This document shows positions 54,230 through 64,000 of a stretch of DNA of 64,000 nt, one piece after another. Under the pieces are notes generated by a model. The model ran no database searches and was not told the origin of the DNA. It saw only the letters and a list, made by a program, of their open reading frames with translations. The DNA comes from Qipengyuania algicida. Lineage in GTDB: Bacteria > Pseudomonadota > Alphaproteobacteria > Sphingomonadales > Sphingomonadaceae. A program made the translations under genes and the position numbers. The stretch lies in NCBI RefSeq assembly GCF_009828025.1, contig NZ_WTYA01000014.1, forward strand, positions 1-64,000, given 5' to 3'. How positions within the stretch are numbered: position 1 is the stretch's first letter; the number at the start of each line of letters is the position of its first letter.

Positions 54230-56377
54230 TTAGAACTCAAATCCCAGTCCGATGTTGAAGGATCGGCCACGCCCCGGCACCGGGCGCAGCACGTCGGTCG
54301 CCTTGTAATCGCCCAGCGATAGCCCCCCCAGCGGCAGAGAGTAAGCCTCGTCGAACAGATTGGTCACGTCGAGGCTCAGCCGCGCAGGGCCGATCTTGTA
54401 GGACGCGCCAAGATCGACCAACGTGTAGCCAGCCGTGGTCGGTTCGTTGCGAGTGGCATCGACGCGGGTCTTGTCGGCCACGAATTGCGCATCCGTGTGC
54501 AGTTCCAGTGGTCCGGCGTGATGCGACAGGCCGAGCCGCGCGTTGAACGGCATCTGGTGATAGACTGGCCCGCCATCTGTCAGATTGTTCCCGCGTTGCC
54601 ATGCCAGCGATCCGGTGAGATCGGTTCCGTCGCCGTCCTTACCCTTCGCCAGACGCAGCGAGCCGGAGACGTCCAGACCGTAGAATTCCGCTTCCTGATT
54701 GGCGAATCGCAACTGCACGAAAGGCGATGGCATGCCCATCATATCGGGCAGGATCTGGATGAAGCGCGCATCGATATAGTCGTGCACGCGGGTGTAGTAG
54801 GGCGAAATACGCAGTGTGTAGCCTTGCGCGCTGCCTCCCAGATCGAGCGCCGCGCTTACAGTATCGGCACGCTCCGGCTTGAGGTCGAGATTGCCGACAT
54901 AGCCGTTGCCATCGCCGAACCAGCCGATCATCCGGCTCGCCATGCCACCGCGGCCCCAGCTATATCGCTCGTAGATATTGGGCGAGCGGACCTTGTGCGC
55001 GAAGCCAAGCTCTATCGAGGCGCTGGGCGACAGGCGATAGGTCAGCAGTTCTGAACCCGACCAGTTGTTGTCCGTGCGCTGGTGGTCGGCGGCGTTGAAT
55101 GCAGCTGCCGCCATGACATCGGCCATCTGCATCATGCCGGTGCCATAGGGTTGCACATCGCCGGTGTTCATCGACACCCGGTCATAGCGGATGCCGAACG
55201 TCGAGGTGAATCGGTCACTCCATTTGGCGACCCATTCGCCATAGACGCCCAGCCGATCGCGGTGCGCGCCATTGACGTTCACGAAGGCATCGGGGCCCAT
55301 CATCATGTTCCCGGCCACCGGCGGCCAGTAATCGTTTAGCCATTGGTGGTGGTATTCGACCCCGAGATTGAGCGTGTGGCGATCCGACAGGCGCGGAGAC
55401 GCTTTGGCTGACGCATCGAAGCTGTGCACTTCAGTATTCATCGGCATCGACCCGGGCAGCTTGTCCTCGAGGAAATTCATCTCGTGGTCGGTGTCGCGAT
55501 AGCTCGCCCGCAGCACCAGATCGCCCCAGTCGAAATAGCCATCATAGCTGGCGTTGAGGAACCAGCTCTTGTTGTCGGTCATATCCATCCACTGGTTCGG
55601 GAATCCCTCGTAAGGGGCATATTGGAAGCCGCCTTTTAACTGCACGAGGCTGGCCCCGCCTTGCCACGCGAGGGCAAGAGACTGGTCGGTCTTGGCATAT
55701 TCGGTCGAGCGGACCTCTCCAAGATCGCCGCCGCCGTCATACTGGTCAGACTGTGTGTAGGAGCCGGTGTAGGTTGCGCTGAGATGTTGGCCCGCGACTG
55801 TCACGCTGGCCGATCCGCCGAAGCCATCGCCGTTGGAGCGATAGAAGCTCGATGCCTTGCCAGTCACCAGCATTCTCTTGCCGGTAGCGAAGCGTGGCGG
55901 CGCGCTTTCGACGGCAATGATCCCGCCGATGCTGTCCCCGCCATTGCTGACCGGGGCCACGCCAGTGAGCACAGTGATCGAGGCGATCGTCTGCGGATCG
56001 GTATAGGACAGCGGCGAATTCATGTCGTTGGGGCAGGCGGCATCGATGGCGAAACCGTCGACGGTGATGCCAAGGCGCTGCTCCGAAAGGCCGCGGATCA
56101 CCGGCATCGAGGAAATGCCGCCGCCGGTATTGGCACTGACACCTGGGAGCGTCGTCAGGATCTGGGCGGTATCGCTGGTCGATTGCTGATCGCGTGCGAG
56201 CCCTTTGCGCGTGATTTTCGTGCCCGCCTCGATCGGCATGGAGGCATTGTCGCCTCCAGCGCTATTGTCGACATCGATAGGGGCGATTTGCGTGGCATCC
56301 TGGGCCATCGCTGCCACCGGTGCGAGCGCGCAGCTCGACACCAGCGCAACGCGCAGGAGCTTGGTACAACTGGTCAT
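54230..56377 (-). CDS. copper-type TonB-dependent receptor (OprC/NosA-like)
   Basis: A 715-residue outer-membrane receptor with signal peptide ending VAAMAQ. The plug has the C-x-x-x-M site characteristic of copper receptors, C115 and M119 in ACPNDMNSPLSY. Barrel loops are strikingly Met-rich (NMMMGPDAF, GTGMMQMADVM, LPDMMGMPSPF). The barrel ends RSFNIGLGFEF. Family relatives bind copper ions in Pseudomonas. It lies between DUF2946 and tonB genes in one direction. Confidence 0.93.
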   Translation of the reverse strand: MTSCTKLLRVALVSSCALAPVAAMAQDATQIAPIDVDNSAGGDNASMPIEAGTKITRKGLARDQQSTSDTAQILTTLPGVSANTGGGISSMPVIRGLSEQRLGITVDGFAIDAACPNDMNSPLSYTDPQTIASITVLTGVAPVSNGGDSIGGIIAVESAPPRFATGKRMLVTGKASSFYRSNGDGFGGSASVTVAGQHLSATYTGSYTQSDQYDGGGDLGEVRSTEYAKTDQSLALAWQGGASLVQLKGGFQYAPYEGFPNQWMDMTDNKSWFLNASYDGYFDWGDLVLRASYRDTDHEMNFLEDKLPGSMPMNTEVHSFDASAKASPRLSDRHTLNLGVEYHHQWLNDYWPPVAGNMMMGPDAFVNVNGAHRDRLGVYGEWVAKWSDRFTSTFGIRYDRVSMNTGDVQPYGTGMMQMADVMAAAAFNAADHQRTDNNWSGSELLTYRLSPSASIELGFAHKVRSPNIYERYSWGRGGMASRMIGWFGDGNGYVGNLDLKPERADTVSAALDLGGSAQGYTLRISPYYTRVHDYIDARFIQILPDMMGMPSPFVQLRFANQEAEFYGLDVSGSLRLAKGKDGDGTDLTGSLAWQRGNNLTDGGPVYHQMPFNARLGLSHHAGPLELHTDAQFVADKTRVDATRNEPTTAGYTLVDLGASYKIGPARLSLDVTNLFDEAYSLPLGGLSLGDYKATDVLRPVPGRGRSFNIGLGFEF

Positions 56378-56508: not shown

Positions 56509-56937
56509 TCAGGATTGGACGGGAGGCGCTCTGGTCTGGGGACGGAGATGGGCAGCCTGATGCACCAGCAACTGGCCTAGAGGCAGGAAGGCCAGCGCCA
56601 GGGTGAAGGCCAGCAGAGCCTCGATCTGGATCGGGTCAGCCCCGGCTAGCGCGCCGCCGATCAGGCTGGTGAACGCGCAGTCGCTGTGTTTGGTCGATTG
56701 GTCGCTCTGGTGCCCGTGATGCCCGGCCTTCATCGGTATGGCCATTTCCATCTTCGCCAAGCCCGGGCTGCTAACGTCGCACACGGTCACGCTCAGCATC
56801 AAAGGACCATCCGACGGGCTGATCATGTAGCCGGTGGGAATGACCGCCTTGATGCTGAACGCCAGCAGGCAAAGCGCGATCAGCGCAAAGCGATTGCCAA
56901 AGATCCAGGTGCGAAGAGCGTCCACGGTCAGGGTCAA
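56509..56937 (-). CDS. DUF2946 membrane protein (copper-associated)
   Basis: A 142-residue protein starting with TTG at 56937. One N-terminal and one C-terminal membrane segment flank a His/Met/Asp-rich middle (MEMAIPMKAGHHGHQSDQST, then KHSDCAFTSL), a pattern typical of DUF2946 proteins that accompany copper receptors. It may hold or sense copper in the periplasm. It is 131 bases upstream of the receptor gene and likely heads the operon. Confidence 0.82.
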   Translation of the reverse strand: MTLTVDALRTWIFGNRFALIALCLLAFSIKAVIPTGYMISPSDGPLMLSVTVCDVSSPGLAKMEMAIPMKAGHHGHQSDQSTKHSDCAFTSLIGGALAGADPIQIEALLAFTLALAFLPLGQLLVHQAAHLRPQTRAPPVQS

Positions 56938-57606: not shown

Positions 57607-57801
57607 TCAGCTTTCAGCATAGCCGGTGTACGCAGTCTCGCCTCCGCACTGCGGCACAGCCCAGGTCGTCAACCTTTGGCTCAATAGAACGAGTAGACCG
57701 CCTATGCCGATCCATGTGAGGATGCCATACTCCGTCAATCCAAGTTGCGAACTACGCTCAATACTCTGACGGTACACAGCTAGGAGGCGATGACCTGGCA
57801 C
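57607..57801 (-). CDS. possible small membrane protein overlapping the kinase 3' end
   Basis: A 64-codon minus-strand frame whose first 14 codons overlap the end of the sensor kinase gene in another frame. It has one good hydrophobic segment, YGILTWIGIGGLLVLLSQRL, after a polar start MPGHRLLAVYRQSIERSSQL. There is no strong ribosome site visible. It could be a real trailing gene of the kinase operon or chance; I do not recognise it. Confidence 0.3.
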   Translation of the reverse strand: MPGHRLLAVYRQSIERSSQLGLTEYGILTWIGIGGLLVLLSQRLTTWAVPQCGGETAYTGYAES

Positions 57802-59137
57802 GAAACTTCACGATTGCCCGTAGCCCGCTTCCAGTAGAAGAAAGTCTGATATCAGCATGGATCGCTTCAGCAATCTCGCGGGCGATAGCGAGCCCAAGAC
57901 CAGATCCAGGTGCGATCTCATCGAAGCGTGAACCGACGTCGAACGCTCTGGCGATTTGGTACGGTTTCATTCCAGGTCCATCGTCAGAAATGGAAATCGA
58001 CATCGTTTCAGGGGTGAGCTGGCAGGACACTATTACTTTCCGACTTGCCCATTTCCCTGCATTGTCGAGCAGGATCGACAAAAGCTCCGACAGGTCCACC
58101 GGATCGACAGGTAGGCTCACTTCGTCCTTAGTGTCATGGCGATCCAGTTCGAACTCCTTCTCCGGGTGCAAACGGCGCATAGCGTTCAGGATCGGCATGA
58201 TAAGCTGGGGAAGAACACTCTCTTGACCGGGCACTCGTGCCACAGCCGCGAATCTCGCACGGGCAAGTTGATATTCGATTTGCTGTTCCATCATTTGTGC
58301 CTGATCGATCAACACCTTGGCACTGCCGGAACTGTCAGGATGTTCCGCCAATCGTTCCGCCTCATCGGTAATGACCGCGAGTGGCGTGCGTAGCCCGTGT
58401 GCCAGGTTACCCGCTTGGACCCGGGCTCGGACAATCATCTGCGTGTTCTGATCGATATAGGTGTTGAGGTCTGTCACAAGTGGAGCGATTTCCGCCGGAT
58501 AGTGACCTTGCAGACGATCCGCTCGTCCTTCGCGCAATCGGCCAATGGCGTAGCCGAGGCGATCAAGAGGTCGAAGACCGAAGTGAACCAGCGCGATTCC
58601 TGAGCCGAGCAATAGTATTGCGAGTACCAAAAGCCACAACGTCAGTTCGCGCGTGAAGCCGTCGATCAGCCTGTCCAGCTCGGACTTGTCGGTCGCGATG
58701 ACAAAATGAAGGTCGCCTCCCCCGGGCAGTCCACGTTCCAGCCCATAAGTGATGGCCGGGCCCGTTGGACCGGTTTCGATCAAATGGACGATATTTCGCG
58801 AATGGGCGACATCTTCGTCTAAACTACCACGCGTCATCGATGCCGAGCGCAGAGTTTTGCCGCCAGGAGCCCAAACCTGCCAATAAAAGCCTGACAGGGG
58901 CTCTTCATAACGCGGATCGGAAAGCAGCCGCGAAAGTTGTGGCCTGCCATCGGCATCAAGCCTTGTGAGCCGAGCAAGCTCACGCACATGGACCGCCAGC
59001 TCCTCATGGTAGGAATGCTCAACATGCTCGGTGAAGACGCGCACTGCAGAAAGCCAGATGGTCCCCACACCAATCACGGTCCACACCGTTATCGCCAACA
59101 GAAAGCGTAGGCGCAGGCTTCCGGGACGAGCCCTCAC
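57758..59137 (-). CDS. sensor histidine kinase
   Basis: A 459-residue membrane kinase starting with GTG at 59137 (overlapping the regulator stop, GTGA). Two membrane segments (near residues 12-31 and 165-186) enclose a periplasmic domain of about 130 residues. The H-box has H247 (GNLAHGLRTPLAVI); the ATPase part has LLSILLDNAGKWA, SDDGPGMKPY and GSGLGLAIARE. It is of the PhoQ/QseC-like group. It pairs with the regulator and faces a metal-type RND operon. Confidence 0.92.
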   Translation of the reverse strand: MRARPGSLRLRFLLAITVWTVIGVGTIWLSAVRVFTEHVEHSYHEELAVHVRELARLTRLDADGRPQLSRLLSDPRYEEPLSGFYWQVWAPGGKTLRSASMTRGSLDEDVAHSRNIVHLIETGPTGPAITYGLERGLPGGGDLHFVIATDKSELDRLIDGFTRELTLWLLVLAILLLGSGIALVHFGLRPLDRLGYAIGRLREGRADRLQGHYPAEIAPLVTDLNTYIDQNTQMIVRARVQAGNLAHGLRTPLAVITDEAERLAEHPDSSGSAKVLIDQAQMMEQQIEYQLARARFAAVARVPGQESVLPQLIMPILNAMRRLHPEKEFELDRHDTKDEVSLPVDPVDLSELLSILLDNAGKWASRKVIVSCQLTPETMSISISDDGPGMKPYQIARAFDVGSRFDEIAPGSGLGLAIAREIAEAIHADIRLSSTGSGLRAIVKFRARSSPPSCVPSEY

Positions 59138-59790
59138 GCTGCGAACCGATAACCGAGACCGCGCAACGTCTCGATTCTTTCACGGCCGATTTTGCGGCGC
59201 AACCTGCCAACAAGCACCTCGACTGTATTGAGTTCTCGTTCTGCTTCGAGTTCATAGAGATGCTCGAGGATATCGGCCTGCGGAAGGACCTGCCCTGCAC
59301 GACGCATGAACAAATGGAGCAGGCGGAATTCCTGACGGCTGAGCGATAGGGGTGAACCCGACATCTCTACCGCATGTGTCAGCGGATCGAGCGAGATATC
59401 GCCGGCCTCCAGTCGGCTTGCACGCCTGCCCTGATGCCGCCGGAATTGCGCATTCAGCCGCGCGAGCAATTCTTCAAAGCGAACCGGTTTGACCACGAAA
59501 TCGTCCGCTCCGGCATTCAGTCCTTCGACTTTTTCCTGCCAACTCCCGCGCGCGGTGAGGATCAAAACCGGAGTCTCAACCCCATGATCGCGCCAGCTAC
59601 GCAGAACCTCCAGTCCATCGCCATCCGGCAGGCCGAGATCGAGGATCGCCGCCGCCATCTTGTCGAGGTCGGGCCAGTCTTCCGCTTCTTCCCGTGTAGT
59701 CGCGAGATCGACTGCAAAATTGGCCGCACGCAAGCGCACCGCGAGGCGCGGCCCGAGTTCGGCGTCGTCTTCGACAAGCAGCAGGCGCAA
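59134..59790 (-). CDS. OmpR-family response regulator
   Basis: A 218-residue regulator. I place the start at TTG 59790 because the product then begins MRLLLVEDDAELGPRLAVRL, the usual family start, and GGGAG lies upstream; an ATG at 59832 in the same frame has no ribosome site and would add 14 residues. The receiver has the acceptor aspartate in AAILDLGLPDGDG, and the winged helix ends IETLRGLGYRFAA. It diverges from the RND operon and probably binds the inverted repeat between them. Confidence 0.9.
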   Translation of the reverse strand: MRLLLVEDDAELGPRLAVRLRAANFAVDLATTREEAEDWPDLDKMAAAILDLGLPDGDGLEVLRSWRDHGVETPVLILTARGSWQEKVEGLNAGADDFVVKPVRFEELLARLNAQFRRHQGRRASRLEAGDISLDPLTHAVEMSGSPLSLSRQEFRLLHLFMRRAGQVLPQADILEHLYELEAERELNTVEVLVGRLRRKIGRERIETLRGLGYRFAA

Positions 59791-59821
59791 ATTTGCAGGA
59801 CTCCCGGTTGGTCTGACTCGG

Positions 59822-59888
59822 CAATGCCGCATGAAACTGACAACAAGCTGCCAAACTGACAAGTTGGTGTCAGTTTCATGCGGCATTG
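59822..59888. promoter_or_regulatory. large inverted repeat (candidate operator) in the divergent promoter
   Basis: Two perfect 21-base arms, 59822-59842 and 59868-59888, flank a 25-base centre; with one mismatch the arms reach 24 bases (to 59818 and 59892). Within the left arm and centre, AAACTGACAA also appears as a direct repeat (from 59833 and again from 59853). The element fills most of the gap between the regulator start (59790) and the adaptor start (59897). Confidence 0.8.
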
Positions 59889-59896
59889 TCGACACC

Positions 59897-60991
59897 ATGA
59901 AGTATCTGGTCCGCCATGCGCTCGTCGCCCTTGTCACGTCAGCCATGCTTGCTGCCTGTTCGGGTGGTAATGGCTCCGCCGACTCTGCTCAGGAAGTTGA
60001 TCAGGAGAGCTCACTAGCCGGACTAGAAATCAAGACTGCCAAGGCGACTGCAGCTACTGACATTCCAGTCGCGACTGTCCCCGGACAAATCAATCTGCCT
60101 CCGCAGGCTCGAGTGGCCGTTACTGCACCGTTTCCCGGAGCTGCGGTGAAAATATATGTCATCGAGGGTCAGGCAGTACGGCGCGGGCAATCCCTTGCAC
60201 TCGTTCGTGCGGTCGAGCCGCTACGCATACGCGGCGATCTGGCTCGTGCAAGGGCAGAAGCGGACGTCGCAATTGCGCGCGCAAAGCGGCTGGAACAACT
60301 TGCCAGGGAAGGTGTGATTGCAGGCGCTCGCGCGGATGAGGCACGCGCACAGGCACGCCAAGCGCAGGCCAATCTGACGCAGGCACGGGGGCTGGCCACC
60401 CTTGCTGGATCCGGTCCCGACGGAACAATTACACTGCGCGCACCAATCGGCGGACGGGTGTCTCACGTCGGCATAGAAACCGGCGGTGCGGTGGACACGA
60501 TGACCGCGCCTTTCGTGATTGAGAACACCGGTGCCTATCAGATCGATTTGCAATTGCCCGAACGGCTCGCTCGTAGAGTGAAGCCGGGAATGCCGATCCA
60601 GGCGCGTGTGAACACGGATGGCAGCGGAGCTATAGCAGTTAGTGGAGAGGTTATCTCCGTGGCGCCCTCGATCGATCCCGCCACGCGCTCGATCATGGCC
60701 AAAGCAAGCATCGGTGCCGCGCCGGGTGTCGTCGCCGGACGCAATGTCAGCGTCAACATCAGCGATACTGCAAGCGGGAATGTATCGGGGGTTACCGTTC
60801 CAGCCAGCGCACTCGTGCGGCTCGATGACAAAGACACGGTGTTCGTGAAAGGCGTCAAGGGGTTTTTACCGCGCGCGGTCAAACTGGCTGCTAGAACCGG
60901 CGACACCGTGGTGATCGAGAAAGGGCTTCAGGCAGGCGAAGAGGTTGCGACAAGCAGCACTGCCGAGCTCAAGGCCATGGCAGCCAAGTAG
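59897..60991 (+). CDS. RND efflux periplasmic adaptor (lipoprotein), CzcB/CusB-like
   Basis: A 364-residue membrane-fusion protein. The signal peptide ends in lipobox LAAC (cysteine 21). Lipoyl halves (ARVAVTAPFPGAAVKIYVIE and TLRAPIGGRVSHVGI), an Ala/Arg-rich hairpin, and the barrel domain (TVPASALVRLDDKDTVFVKG) follow. The layout fits heavy-metal adaptors, though no N-terminal Met/His metal site is evident. The ATG at 59897 lacks a strong ribosome site. The permease starts seven bases after its stop. Confidence 0.9.
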   Translation: MKYLVRHALVALVTSAMLAACSGGNGSADSAQEVDQESSLAGLEIKTAKATAATDIPVATVPGQINLPPQARVAVTAPFPGAAVKIYVIEGQAVRRGQSLALVRAVEPLRIRGDLARARAEADVAIARAKRLEQLAREGVIAGARADEARAQARQAQANLTQARGLATLAGSGPDGTITLRAPIGGRVSHVGIETGGAVDTMTAPFVIENTGAYQIDLQLPERLARRVKPGMPIQARVNTDGSGAIAVSGEVISVAPSIDPATRSIMAKASIGAAPGVVAGRNVSVNISDTASGNVSGVTVPASALVRLDDKDTVFVKGVKGFLPRAVKLAARTGDTVVIEKGLQAGEEVATSSTAELKAMAAK

Positions 60992-60998
60992 CGCGTCG

Positions 60999-63900
60999 AT
61001 GCTCCAATCCTTCATCAGAAAGGCGCTCGACTTGAGGCTGGCAGTGCTCGCTCTGGCGGCGCTACTGGCGGGTATCGGAGGCTGGTCGTTCGCAAATTTG
61101 CCGATTGACGCCTTCCCAGACATCAGCTCGACCCAGGTCAAGATCATCCTCAAGGCGCCCGGCATGACGCCGGAGGAAATCGAGAGCCGGGTGATCACCC
61201 CGATCGAGATGGAAATGCTCGGCATCCCGAACCAGAGCGTGCTGCGCTCGGTCGCGAAATACGCCATTGCCGACATCACTATCGATTTCGCTGATGGGAC
61301 CGACATCTATTGGGCGCGCAACCAGGTGGCCGAACGGCTCAATGCTGTCATGGGCGACATGCCGACAAACGTTTCGGGCGGCATGGCACCGATCAGCACG
61401 CCACTTTCCGAGATGTTCATGTTCACACTGGAGGGGCCGCAATCACTGGCCGAAAAGCGTAAGGTACTCGACTGGACGATCCGTCCGGCCTTGCGCACCG
61501 TGCCGGGCGTGGCCGACGTCAACGCGCTAGGTGGCTACGCCGAAACATTCGAAGTGTCTCCCGACAACGCCGCGCTTGTAGCTGCGGGTCTATCAACGGC
61601 AGACCTCTCCGCAGCCATTGAAGATAGCAATCGGAACGACGGCGCGGGTCGCATTATCTCGGGCGAGGAAGCACTGATCGTGCGTTCGATCGGTGCGATC
61701 CGAACTCACGACGACCTCGCAAACGTGGTAGTTAAGACAGACAATGGAGCTGTAGTGCGATTGGGCGATGTCGCTCGGATCGGGACCGGGAGCCTGACCC
61801 GTTATGGAGCGGTCTCAAAGAACGGCGAAGGCGAAGCGGTCGAAGGATTGGTGGTTGGCCTTCGCGGAGCGGATGCCGGGAAGCTTGTTGACGGCGTCAA
61901 AGCCCGGCTTGAGCAGCTGAAACCGACACTACCCGCCGGAATGTCGATTCATGTGTTCTACGATCGCTCGGATCTAATTTCGCGGGCCGTCGGCACGGTT
62001 GAGGATGCGCTGCTCGAAGCGACAGTCCTCGTCGTAATCTTGCTGGTGCTCTTCCTTGGTGATTTCCGCGCGTCGGCGATCGTTGCCGTGGCATTGCCAA
62101 TGGCTGTTTTGCTCACTTTCATCTTTATGCGCGCGGTCGGACTAACCGCCAATCTGATGAGCCTGGGCGGCCTCGCCATTGCTGTCGGTATATTGGTCGA
62201 CGGTGCGATCGTGGTGGTCGAGAATGTGGTTGAGCGACTTTCCGACGAAAAGCACGCAACCGAGAGCAAGCTTCACACCATTTTCATCGCTACCACCGAG
62301 GTGGCAAAGCCGGTCGCTTCGGGCCTTGCGATCATCGCACTGGTGTTCCTGCCGCTTCTGTCTTTGCAGGGTCTGGAAGGAAAGCTGTTCTCACCGGTCG
62401 CGGTCACGATCGTGCTGGCGATTGTTTCGGCGCTTGTCCTCTCGCTCACCCTGGTCCCGGTGCTCGCGTACTACCTCCTCAAGGTGAAGCACGGACATCA
62501 CGAACCCTGGCTGATACGCAAGATCGCCCCAGGATATCACAAGCTTTTGGACGGCGCGTTTCGGCGCAAGTATCTCGTTTTCTCGATTGCAGGTATCGCA
62601 TTGATCCTGACCGGTGTTGCCTACTCGATGACAGGCAAAACATTCATGCCGACGATGGATGAGGGCTCCATCATCGTCCAGCTTAATAAGCTGCCGTCGA
62701 TCTCTCTCAAACACAGTGTCGAAGGGGACATGAAGGTGCAGCGGGCCTTGCTCAGGCAGGTGCCGGAGATCAAGGAAATTGTCGCTCGCGTCGGCTCCGA
62801 CGAACTCGGCCTCGATCCGATGAGCCTCAATGAAACCGATACCTTCCTCGTCCTCAAACCGCGCGAGGAGTGGTCTGTAGACAGTAAGGAAGCACTGCTC
62901 GACCGCATTCGTCAGGTGCTCAAGCAATTTCCCGGGATCGAACCCGCCTATACCCAGCCTATCGAGATGCGGACGTCCGAAATGCTCAGTGGAGCGCGTG
63001 GTGATCTAGCGATCAAGCTGTTTGGACCGGATTTGATGGAACTCTCGCGCCTCGCCGGAGAAATACAGACCCAGCTCGAAAGCATCGACGGTACCAGCGA
63101 AGCCATGACGATGGCGAACGACAGCGTCGACTATTTGCAGCTCGATATCGACCGTGTGGCAGCCGGGCGGCTAGGTATGTCCGTCAGCGACCTTCAGGAC
63201 GCAATGCGAGCCGAGGTCGAAGGTATTCGTTCGGGTGTCGTAACGGAAGGGATACGCCGTGTGCCCATCGTTATCCGTGCCGATACGATCACCTACCAGA
63301 GCGCCCAGCAATTCGTCGACACAGTTTATCGCAGCTCATCGGGAACGCTGGTGCGCGCGGGCGACATTGCCCGCGTCGACCAGATCGAAGGGCCGGTGAA
63401 ACTGGAGCATGAAAACGGATCGCGCTTCGCCATGGTTCAGGCGTTTGTTTCAGGGCGCGATCTCGTCGGCTATGTCGATGAAGCCAAGGCCTTGATCGGG
63501 AAGAACGTTAATCTTCCGCAAGGCTATCGGCTGGAATGGGGCGGCCAATTCGAAAACCAGCAGCGCGCGAGTGCACGGTTGATGGTGGTATTGCCGATTT
63601 CTATCCTGGTGATCTTCGCCATCCTCTATTTCACGCTCGGGTCGGTGCGCGCATCATTGCTGATCCTGACCAACATCCCCTTCGCTATGGTCGGCGGAAT
63701 GATCTCACTTGCCTTGTCGGGTGAGTATCTGTCCGTCCCCGCCTCAGTAGGATTTATCGCCCTGCTCGGCATCGCGGTGCTCAATGGCCTCGTGATGGTA
63801 AGTTACTTCCGTCAATTGCGGGAAAATGGAATGCCCCTTGCGCAAGCCGTCCGTCAGGGGGCAGAACGCCGTCTGCGCCCGGTCCTTATGACGGCCAGCA

Positions 63901-64000
63901 TTGCCGCATTCGGTCTCGTTCCGCTGTTGTTTGCGACTGGCCCGGGTTCGGAAATCCAGAGGCCACTTGCGATAGTTGTGATCGGCGGATTGGTGTCGGC
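60999..64000 (+). CDS. CzcA/CusA-like RND efflux permease (3' end outside window)
   Basis: The first 1000 residues or so of a heavy-metal-type RND pump; the frame is open to the window edge. It starts MLQSFIRKALDLRLAVLALA. The segment-4 motif reads AVGILVDGAIVVVENVVERL, with the D-G-x-x-x-x-x-E-N pattern of the metal-exporting (HME) group, unlike the paired-aspartate motif of the pump at 50400. Other family blocks are NLPIDAFPDISSTQVKI and GKTFMPTMDEGSIIVQL. Likely substrates are divalent or monovalent metal ions. The outer-membrane channel is not in view. Confidence 0.95.
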   Translation, partial: MLQSFIRKALDLRLAVLALAALLAGIGGWSFANLPIDAFPDISSTQVKIILKAPGMTPEEIESRVITPIEMEMLGIPNQSVLRSVAKYAIADITIDFADGTDIYWARNQVAERLNAVMGDMPTNVSGGMAPISTPLSEMFMFTLEGPQSLAEKRKVLDWTIRPALRTVPGVADVNALGGYAETFEVSPDNAALVAAGLSTADLSAAIEDSNRNDGAGRIISGEEALIVRSIGAIRTHDDLANVVVKTDNGAVVRLGDVARIGTGSLTRYGAVSKNGEGEAVEGLVVGLRGADAGKLVDGVKARLEQLKPTLPAGMSIHVFYDRSDLISRAVGTVEDALLEATVLVVILLVLFLGDFRASAIVAVALPMAVLLTFIFMRAVGLTANLMSLGGLAIAVGILVDGAIVVVENVVERLSDEKHATESKLHTIFIATTEVAKPVASGLAIIALVFLPLLSLQGLEGKLFSPVAVTIVLAIVSALVLSLTLVPVLAYYLLKVKHGHHEPWLIRKIAPGYHKLLDGAFRRKYLVFSIAGIALILTGVAYSMTGKTFMPTMDEGSIIVQLNKLPSISLKHSVEGDMKVQRALLRQVPEIKEIVARVGSDELGLDPMSLNETDTFLVLKPREEWSVDSKEALLDRIRQVLKQFPGIEPAYTQPIEMRTSEMLSGARGDLAIKLFGPDLMELSRLAGEIQTQLESIDGTSEAMTMANDSVDYLQLDIDRVAAGRLGMSVSDLQDAMRAEVEGIRSGVVTEGIRRVPIVIRADTITYQSAQQFVDTVYRSSSGTLVRAGDIARVDQIEGPVKLEHENGSRFAMVQAFVSGRDLVGYVDEAKALIGKNVNLPQGYRLEWGGQFENQQRASARLMVVLPISILVIFAILYFTLGSVRASLLILTNIPFAMVGGMISLALSGEYLSVPASVGFIALLGIAVLNGLVMVSYFRQLRENGMPLAQAVRQGAERRLRPVLMTASIAAFGLVPLLFATGPGSEIQRPLAIVVIGGLVS

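Follow-up and report, generated by a model that had tools for sequence, protein, structure and literature searches.

A long inverted repeat in the space between the gene of a response regulator (RR) and the gene of an RND adaptor very probably acts, judged from its sequence, as a switch that controls a metal-pump operon on one side and the genes of that operon's own regulator on the other. In detail, we hold it with a probability of about 0.78 to be a shared dyad-symmetric operator-promoter of class II, composed of two back-to-back boxes and serving the divergent adaptor-RND-outer-membrane factor (plus strand) and RR-histidine kinase (HK) (minus strand) operons. Comparison with related loci shows a half-site array, its linkage to these genes, a mirrored A and a fixed distance to the ATG. 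The window, i.e. the whole stretch of DNA analysed, comprises 64,000 nucleotides. It contains the following genes next to the element:

57758..59137, minus strand: sensor histidine kinase (Pfam HATPase_c)
59134..59790, minus strand: OmpR/PmrA-type RR (Pfam Response_reg and Trans_reg_C)
59897..60991, plus strand: RND periplasmic adaptor (Pfam HlyD_D23/HlyD_3; TIGR01730 131.7 bits, over the cut-off of 94.9)
60999..64000, continuing beyond the window, plus strand: CusA/CzcA-type HME-RND permease (TIGR00914 958 bits for 60999-63998, cut-off 701.5)

The RR start was placed in this analysis at the TTG at 59790, which has GGGAG upstream. With this start and the adaptor ATG at 59897, the space of 106 bases given by the initial annotation holds. 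The RR carries both a receiver domain and a winged-helix Trans_reg_C domain, as is typical of the OmpR/PhoB type, and scores highest for PmrA/QseB, not PhoB. Its best NCBIfam model is PmrA (194.8 bits, under the cut-off of 330), and it stays below the CzcR/SilR/CopR heavy-metal subfamily TIGR01387 (158 bits, cut-off 279.2). The closest PDB chains are named PhoP and BasR, the PhoP chain presumably being mycobacterial. Likewise, the kinase is below the cut-off of the heavy-metal HK model TIGR01386 (64.5 bits, cut-off 292.6). The adaptor has a signal peptide with a lipobox-like LAAC (lipobox read by eye). The reading frame of the permease closes on the element's own contig past the window (L002), and a gene for an outer-membrane efflux protein (OEP) lies downstream of it, outside the window. 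The HME-RND set, a permease above the CusA/CzcA cut-off with adaptor and outer-membrane factor, is complete, and metal transport is its predicted function.

The locus appears to be accessory. Of 296 genomes of the order, 21 (its own among them) gave an adaptor match at E<=1e-50, and none of these matches came from the 20 further genomes of the same genus that were listed. Past the window (L002 9311-9904, 10329-11045) the efflux operon is followed by a DUF2202 protein gene and then by a gene for an IS110-type transposase, which fits an accessory locus. Beyond the RR-HK operon, the minus strand of the window encodes a DUF2946 protein (56509-56937) and a TonB-dependent receptor (54230-56377; 157/472 bits for a copper receptor model, 163/324 for the haem/transferrin type). 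DUF2946 proteins are often neighbours of copper genes, and together with the receptor this one may hint at copper as the metal.

The inverted repeat and its conserved core

That the inverted repeat exists is confirmed, and its length far exceeds what chance would give. A repeat search gave arms of 36 nt each (59818-59853 and 59857-59892) with 86% complementarity. The second-longest perfect arm in the window measures 12 nt (spacer up to 60), and the longest perfect arms in 20 Markov-1 simulations of 64 kb were 10-14 nt. The initial annotation had described perfect arms of 21 bases, or 24 with one mismatch. The former is exact (left arm 59822-59842); the extension with one mismatch, read outward by eye, covers 25 positions, not 24. 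The additional direct repeat that it mentioned was recovered by the repeat search as AAACTGACAA at 59834-59843 and 59853-59862; a degenerate version, AAGCTGCCAA, lies at 59845-59854. The element and the half-sites that comparison with relatives reveals within it are:

59818-59892, no strand: long inverted repeat (repeat search; longest perfect arm 21 nt)
59838..59842, no strand: half-site H1, TGACA, outer, RR side
59849..59853, no strand: half-site H2, TGCCA, inner
59857..59861, no strand: half-site H3, TGACA, inner
59868..59872, no strand: half-site H4, TGTCA, outer, adaptor side

The conserved core is a 35-bp array of these four TGNCA half-sites (59838-59872) with a centre spacing of 11-8-11; the 11-bp distances of H1-H2 and H3-H4 are conserved. 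For the comparison, the best 80 of 155 confirmed RR relatives (loci L003-L082) were scored for TGNCA-N6-TGNCA-N3-TGNCA-N6-TGNCA on its 16 specified bases. In 26 of the 31 loci L003-L033 the array lies between the same two genes and matches at 14-16 bases; the labels of these 31 are mostly those of sphingomonads, several being metagenome bins with broad labels and one being Hoeflea. The other 49 loci (L034-L082) score at most 11/16. Among L003-L033 a divergent adaptor is found in 30 and an RND gene in 27; the contig ends first in L003, L013 and L028, and L005 has no RND gene in the fetched flank. The five exceptions (L019, L021, L022, L025, L030) retain one 11-bp pair, and L036 and L047 have an adaptor and lack the four-site array. 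The loci are mutually related, so these counts are not independent. The proposal that the repeat is the operator of a divergent RR/RND system is, with the array between the same two genes in 26/31 loci, very probably right as a prediction: a dyad-symmetric site lies between RR-HK and HME-RND operons, with the gene order kept in relatives, as in the CusR-type divergent operator.

From the window and the 26 loci we built a 71-nt sequence model (R1). At E<=0.01 it matched 44 of 397 genomes of the family, own genome included. Twenty-nine loci were taken from the stronger matches; 28 of them hold adaptor and RR homologues, and 14 of the 28 are new. The remaining match (L132) has no such genes, lies inside open reading frames and scores 11/16, and was taken as chance. 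With this model, first-pass candidates being partly scored, the own genome gave no second array up to E<=10, which speaks against a wider regulon there. A look for plasmid copies gave short partial matches in 18 records, all of them below 80% coverage of the query.

The long outer arms are a different matter. A search for the palindrome in related loci, as the initial annotation had suggested, recovers the core and not the perfect outer arms: conservation extends to the 35-bp array with mirrored -10-like positions and not to the long palindrome; outer arms as perfect as those of the window occur in 0 of 41 relatives compared. The flanks beyond the GYTT that adjoins the outer half-sites pair with each other at 15/16 positions in the window and at 11/16 in the best of the 41 relatives. 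The near-perfect pairing in the window may have arisen when template switching corrected an imperfect palindrome. Flank symmetry exceeding the shared consensus is weak at best in relatives: own flanks paired at 6.24/16 positions in the 41 relatives vs 5.79 (sd 0.26) after permutation (218 of 5000 permutations as high), and at 6.77 vs 6.08 for cross pairs in the 26 loci. Upstream of the RR, L019 has by eye a perfect palindrome with 18-nt arms around a lone TGACA-N6-TGTCA pair, a near-perfect two-way operator.

Distance to the start codon and predicted transcripts

Outside the outer half-sites, GYTT is followed by weaker conservation in which C and A stand out at flank positions 12-13. In four-site loci, A occupies position 13 in 42/43 cases on the adaptor side and in 40/43 on the RR side. 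This count excludes eight loci treated as one-pair (L019, L021, L022, L025, L030, L047, L087, L133), two of which (L087, L133) retain a third half-site. L088 has T in place of both flank A's. The near-invariant A on both sides is consistent with mirrored -10 elements, although only the A and in part the preceding C of the hexamer are conserved; a consensus promoter scan of the region found nothing. In -10 elements the base conserved best is an A eleven bases ahead of the start, which would place +1 at flank position 24. The resulting features are:

59821..59826, minus strand: -10-like CATTGC facing the RR, conserved A at 59825 (flank A in 40/43 loci)
59884..59889, plus strand: -10-like CATTGT facing the adaptor, conserved A at 59885 (flank A in 42/43 loci)
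59814, minus strand: predicted +1 of the RR-HK transcript, 11 bases past A 59825, with a 24-nt leader
59896, plus strand: predicted +1 of the adaptor transcript, leaderless, 11 bases past the conserved A, with the ATG at 59897

In 46 of 51 non-redundant orthologous loci an in-frame ATG or GTG is found at flank positions 24-26, which is 28-30 nt when counted from where the outer half-site starts. The set excludes loci that lack an adaptor, those with an RR under 55% identity and 17 duplicates. The anchor used for this count ignores the ATG, and its profile peaks only at 28-30. The five misses (L021, L022, L030, L047, L087) agree when anchored on their sole clear pair, with the frame of L021 not confirmed. 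A simpler anchor gave a start codon in 43/52, the misses being wrong anchors or unsettled frames (L014, L021); the frame of L014 is settled by the ATG-ignoring anchor. Two sets not used to find the rule follow it: seven new orthologous loci from the adaptor search alone have the start at 28-29, and 13 of the 14 new model-found loci have it at 28-30, L134 likewise by a pair-based count. The R1-model loci were selected partly on the flank A, while the ATG lies outside the model. The clear exception is L036, which encodes adaptor, RND and an RR of 52% identity, and in which 62 nt separate the half-site from the first in-frame ATG; it retains a half-site pair and a TACACA -10-like element.

Since -10, +1 and start codon stand at a fixed distance, the adaptor mRNA is predicted to be leaderless, its +1 coinciding with the ATG or lying no more than about 2 nt from it. 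This would explain why the adaptor lacks a ribosome site. The initial annotation had already remarked on this lack, and by eye no Shine-Dalgarno-like stretch is seen ahead of ATG 59897. In the relatives, Shine-Dalgarno-like 4-mers precede the RR in 35/52 loci vs 1/52 for the adaptor, about nine of the adaptor positions being wrongly anchored. The predicted 24-nt leader on the RR side contains GGGAG, and the leaders in relatives are mostly 11-51 nt. Lack of a leader may be more widespread among pump mRNAs of the order. Fourteen adaptor loci have no RR match or a best one below 55%. Ten of them (L092, L093, L096, L097, L098, L100, L101, L103, L104, L134) contain a.GTCA-N6-.GTCA pair and four do not; all ten have the start at 28-30, and nine the flank A.

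Proposed mechanism and alternative readings

From this pattern we infer binding by the RR, activation, the start sites, leaderless translation and metal as the signal. Two RR dimers would occupy two boxes back to back, each of two TGNCA half-sites at an 11-bp pitch, with the inner half-sites 8 bp apart from centre to centre. A pitch of 11 bp is usual for OmpR-type boxes, and its presence in each half of the array makes the palindrome readable as two ordinary OmpR-type boxes set back to back. The palindrome would then follow from one regulator having to face two ways. Each outer half-site would stand in for the -35 and bring polymerase to a weak -10 that lies eleven bases farther from the centre, the kind of recruitment by which OmpR/PhoB-type regulators act in class II activation. 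The phoA promoter has the same spacing, TGTCA-N11-(-10). Upon activation by the kinase, probably triggered by metal, the RR would turn on the pump and itself together, with the adaptor mRNA beginning at or next to its ATG and translated without a leader. The element probably serves two promoters through several RR protomers, in line with the suggestions of the initial annotation that the regulator binds as a higher-order complex or that the two promoters are coupled. At one-pair loci a single pair seems to serve both sides, because A is found on both flanks of the pair in six of seven such loci (L047 not being among the seven).

An extension of this reading is tentative. In this family, half-site, -10 and start codon may form a rigid cassette of about 29 nt that forces the first pump gene to be leaderless. 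The predicted starts are 82 bp apart around the dyad centre at 59855, and about 63 bp apart in one-pair relatives. Given the footprint sizes of polymerase, two cassettes might let two polymerases just meet at the dyad centre, one RR tetramer firing both promoters or alternating them. At 63 bp simultaneous occupancy should be impossible, so that one-pair relatives may have a built-in choice between regulator and pump.

The alternative that survives best, though we consider it unlikely, is that of a CusR/AgrR-type site, with a single inverted-repeat dimer site for the RR (H3-H4 or H1-H4) and the remaining copies as auxiliary direct repeats. E. coli CusR binds AAAATGACAAnnTTGTCATTTT between the divergent cusRS and cusC(F)BA operons (PMC11195947). 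AgrR binds a 6-4-6 inverted repeat, accompanied at some operators by further direct repeats, and may be a type II activator (PMC7380067). Some loci here also retain just one clear TGACA-N6-TGTCA pair. However, TGACA and TGTCA are separated by 6 bp, not by the 4 of the CusR box TGACAA-N2-TTGTCA, the four-site 11-8-11 order is kept in 26/31 loci, and the RR reaches 158 of the 279 bits for the CzcR/SilR/CopR family. Moreover, the pair is a direct repeat of.GTCA in the ten more distant loci, which points to tandem binding.

Far less likely than a single dimer site is an action of the palindrome as RNA, with 5'-leader hairpins controlling translation or termination. Either strand folds strongly (-50.2 kcal/mol, z -7.7; -52.6, z -6.4), but neither predicted transcript holds the palindrome, the starts at 59814 (-) and 59896 (+) being outside it. 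This makes the hairpins in both 5' leaders that the initial annotation had considered unlikely. No terminator-like site and no Rfam match was found, and the array is kept in relatives without well-paired outer arms. Readings as RNA hairpin, terminator or riboswitch were set aside on the predicted starts and the lack of conservation of the outer arms. Least probable of all is a mobile-element remnant or chance flank duplication, for which the IS110-type transposase gene downstream and the restricted occurrence of the adaptor within the genus might speak. Against it, a DNA search finds the element at a single place in its own 3.2-Mb, 21-contig genome, and other genera keep the core between the same genes.

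Read as an operator-promoter, the odd palindrome yields a concrete rule in which half-site and -10 are separated by 11 bases and followed by the start codon, with the mirror image on the regulator side. This rule predicts leaderless mRNA for metal-type efflux operons in sphingomonads. Direct-repeat pair, palindromic pair and four-site array form a natural series for how divergent control evolves, and the array is a motif for finding such systems.

Comparison with known systems

The element is a variant of the CusR-type divergent operator. With the E. coli CusR box it shares an OmpR-family RR and palindromic TGACA/TGTCA common to divergent regulator and HME-RND operons. In the CusR box, a single palindrome of 22 bp, TGACA and TGTCA stand 4 bp apart (PMC11195947); in contrast, the element described here has four half-sites at 11-8-11, mirrored -10 positions, a fixed start-codon distance and an RR under the family cut-off. 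In a limited search of open-licence literature we found no description of the four-site order, of mirrored -10 positions or of a start codon at fixed distance.

For AgrR of Cupriavidus metallidurans, positive autoregulation and a role as type II activator are proposed. Its box likewise combines inverted and direct repeats of one half-site, but with ATTACA half-sites and a 6-4-6 core (PMC7380067). The PHO box of PhoB consists of two 11-nt direct-repeat units, the best conserved E. coli motif being CTGTCAT (PMC4415409). The unit pitch is the same; unlike in the PHO box, two such boxes here face away from each other.

A precedent for the predicted leaderless adaptor mRNA of a metal-efflux operon is the czcI2 mRNA of C. 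metallidurans, whose start site is placed directly at the 5' end of the gene (PMC10127602). This too is a metal-efflux operon with a divergent promoter (PMC10127602, PMC7563307). There the first gene is czcI2, not the adaptor, and the divergent partner is zntA, which has its own regulator ZntR. CusR, AgrR and the PHO box already cover the parts of the system.
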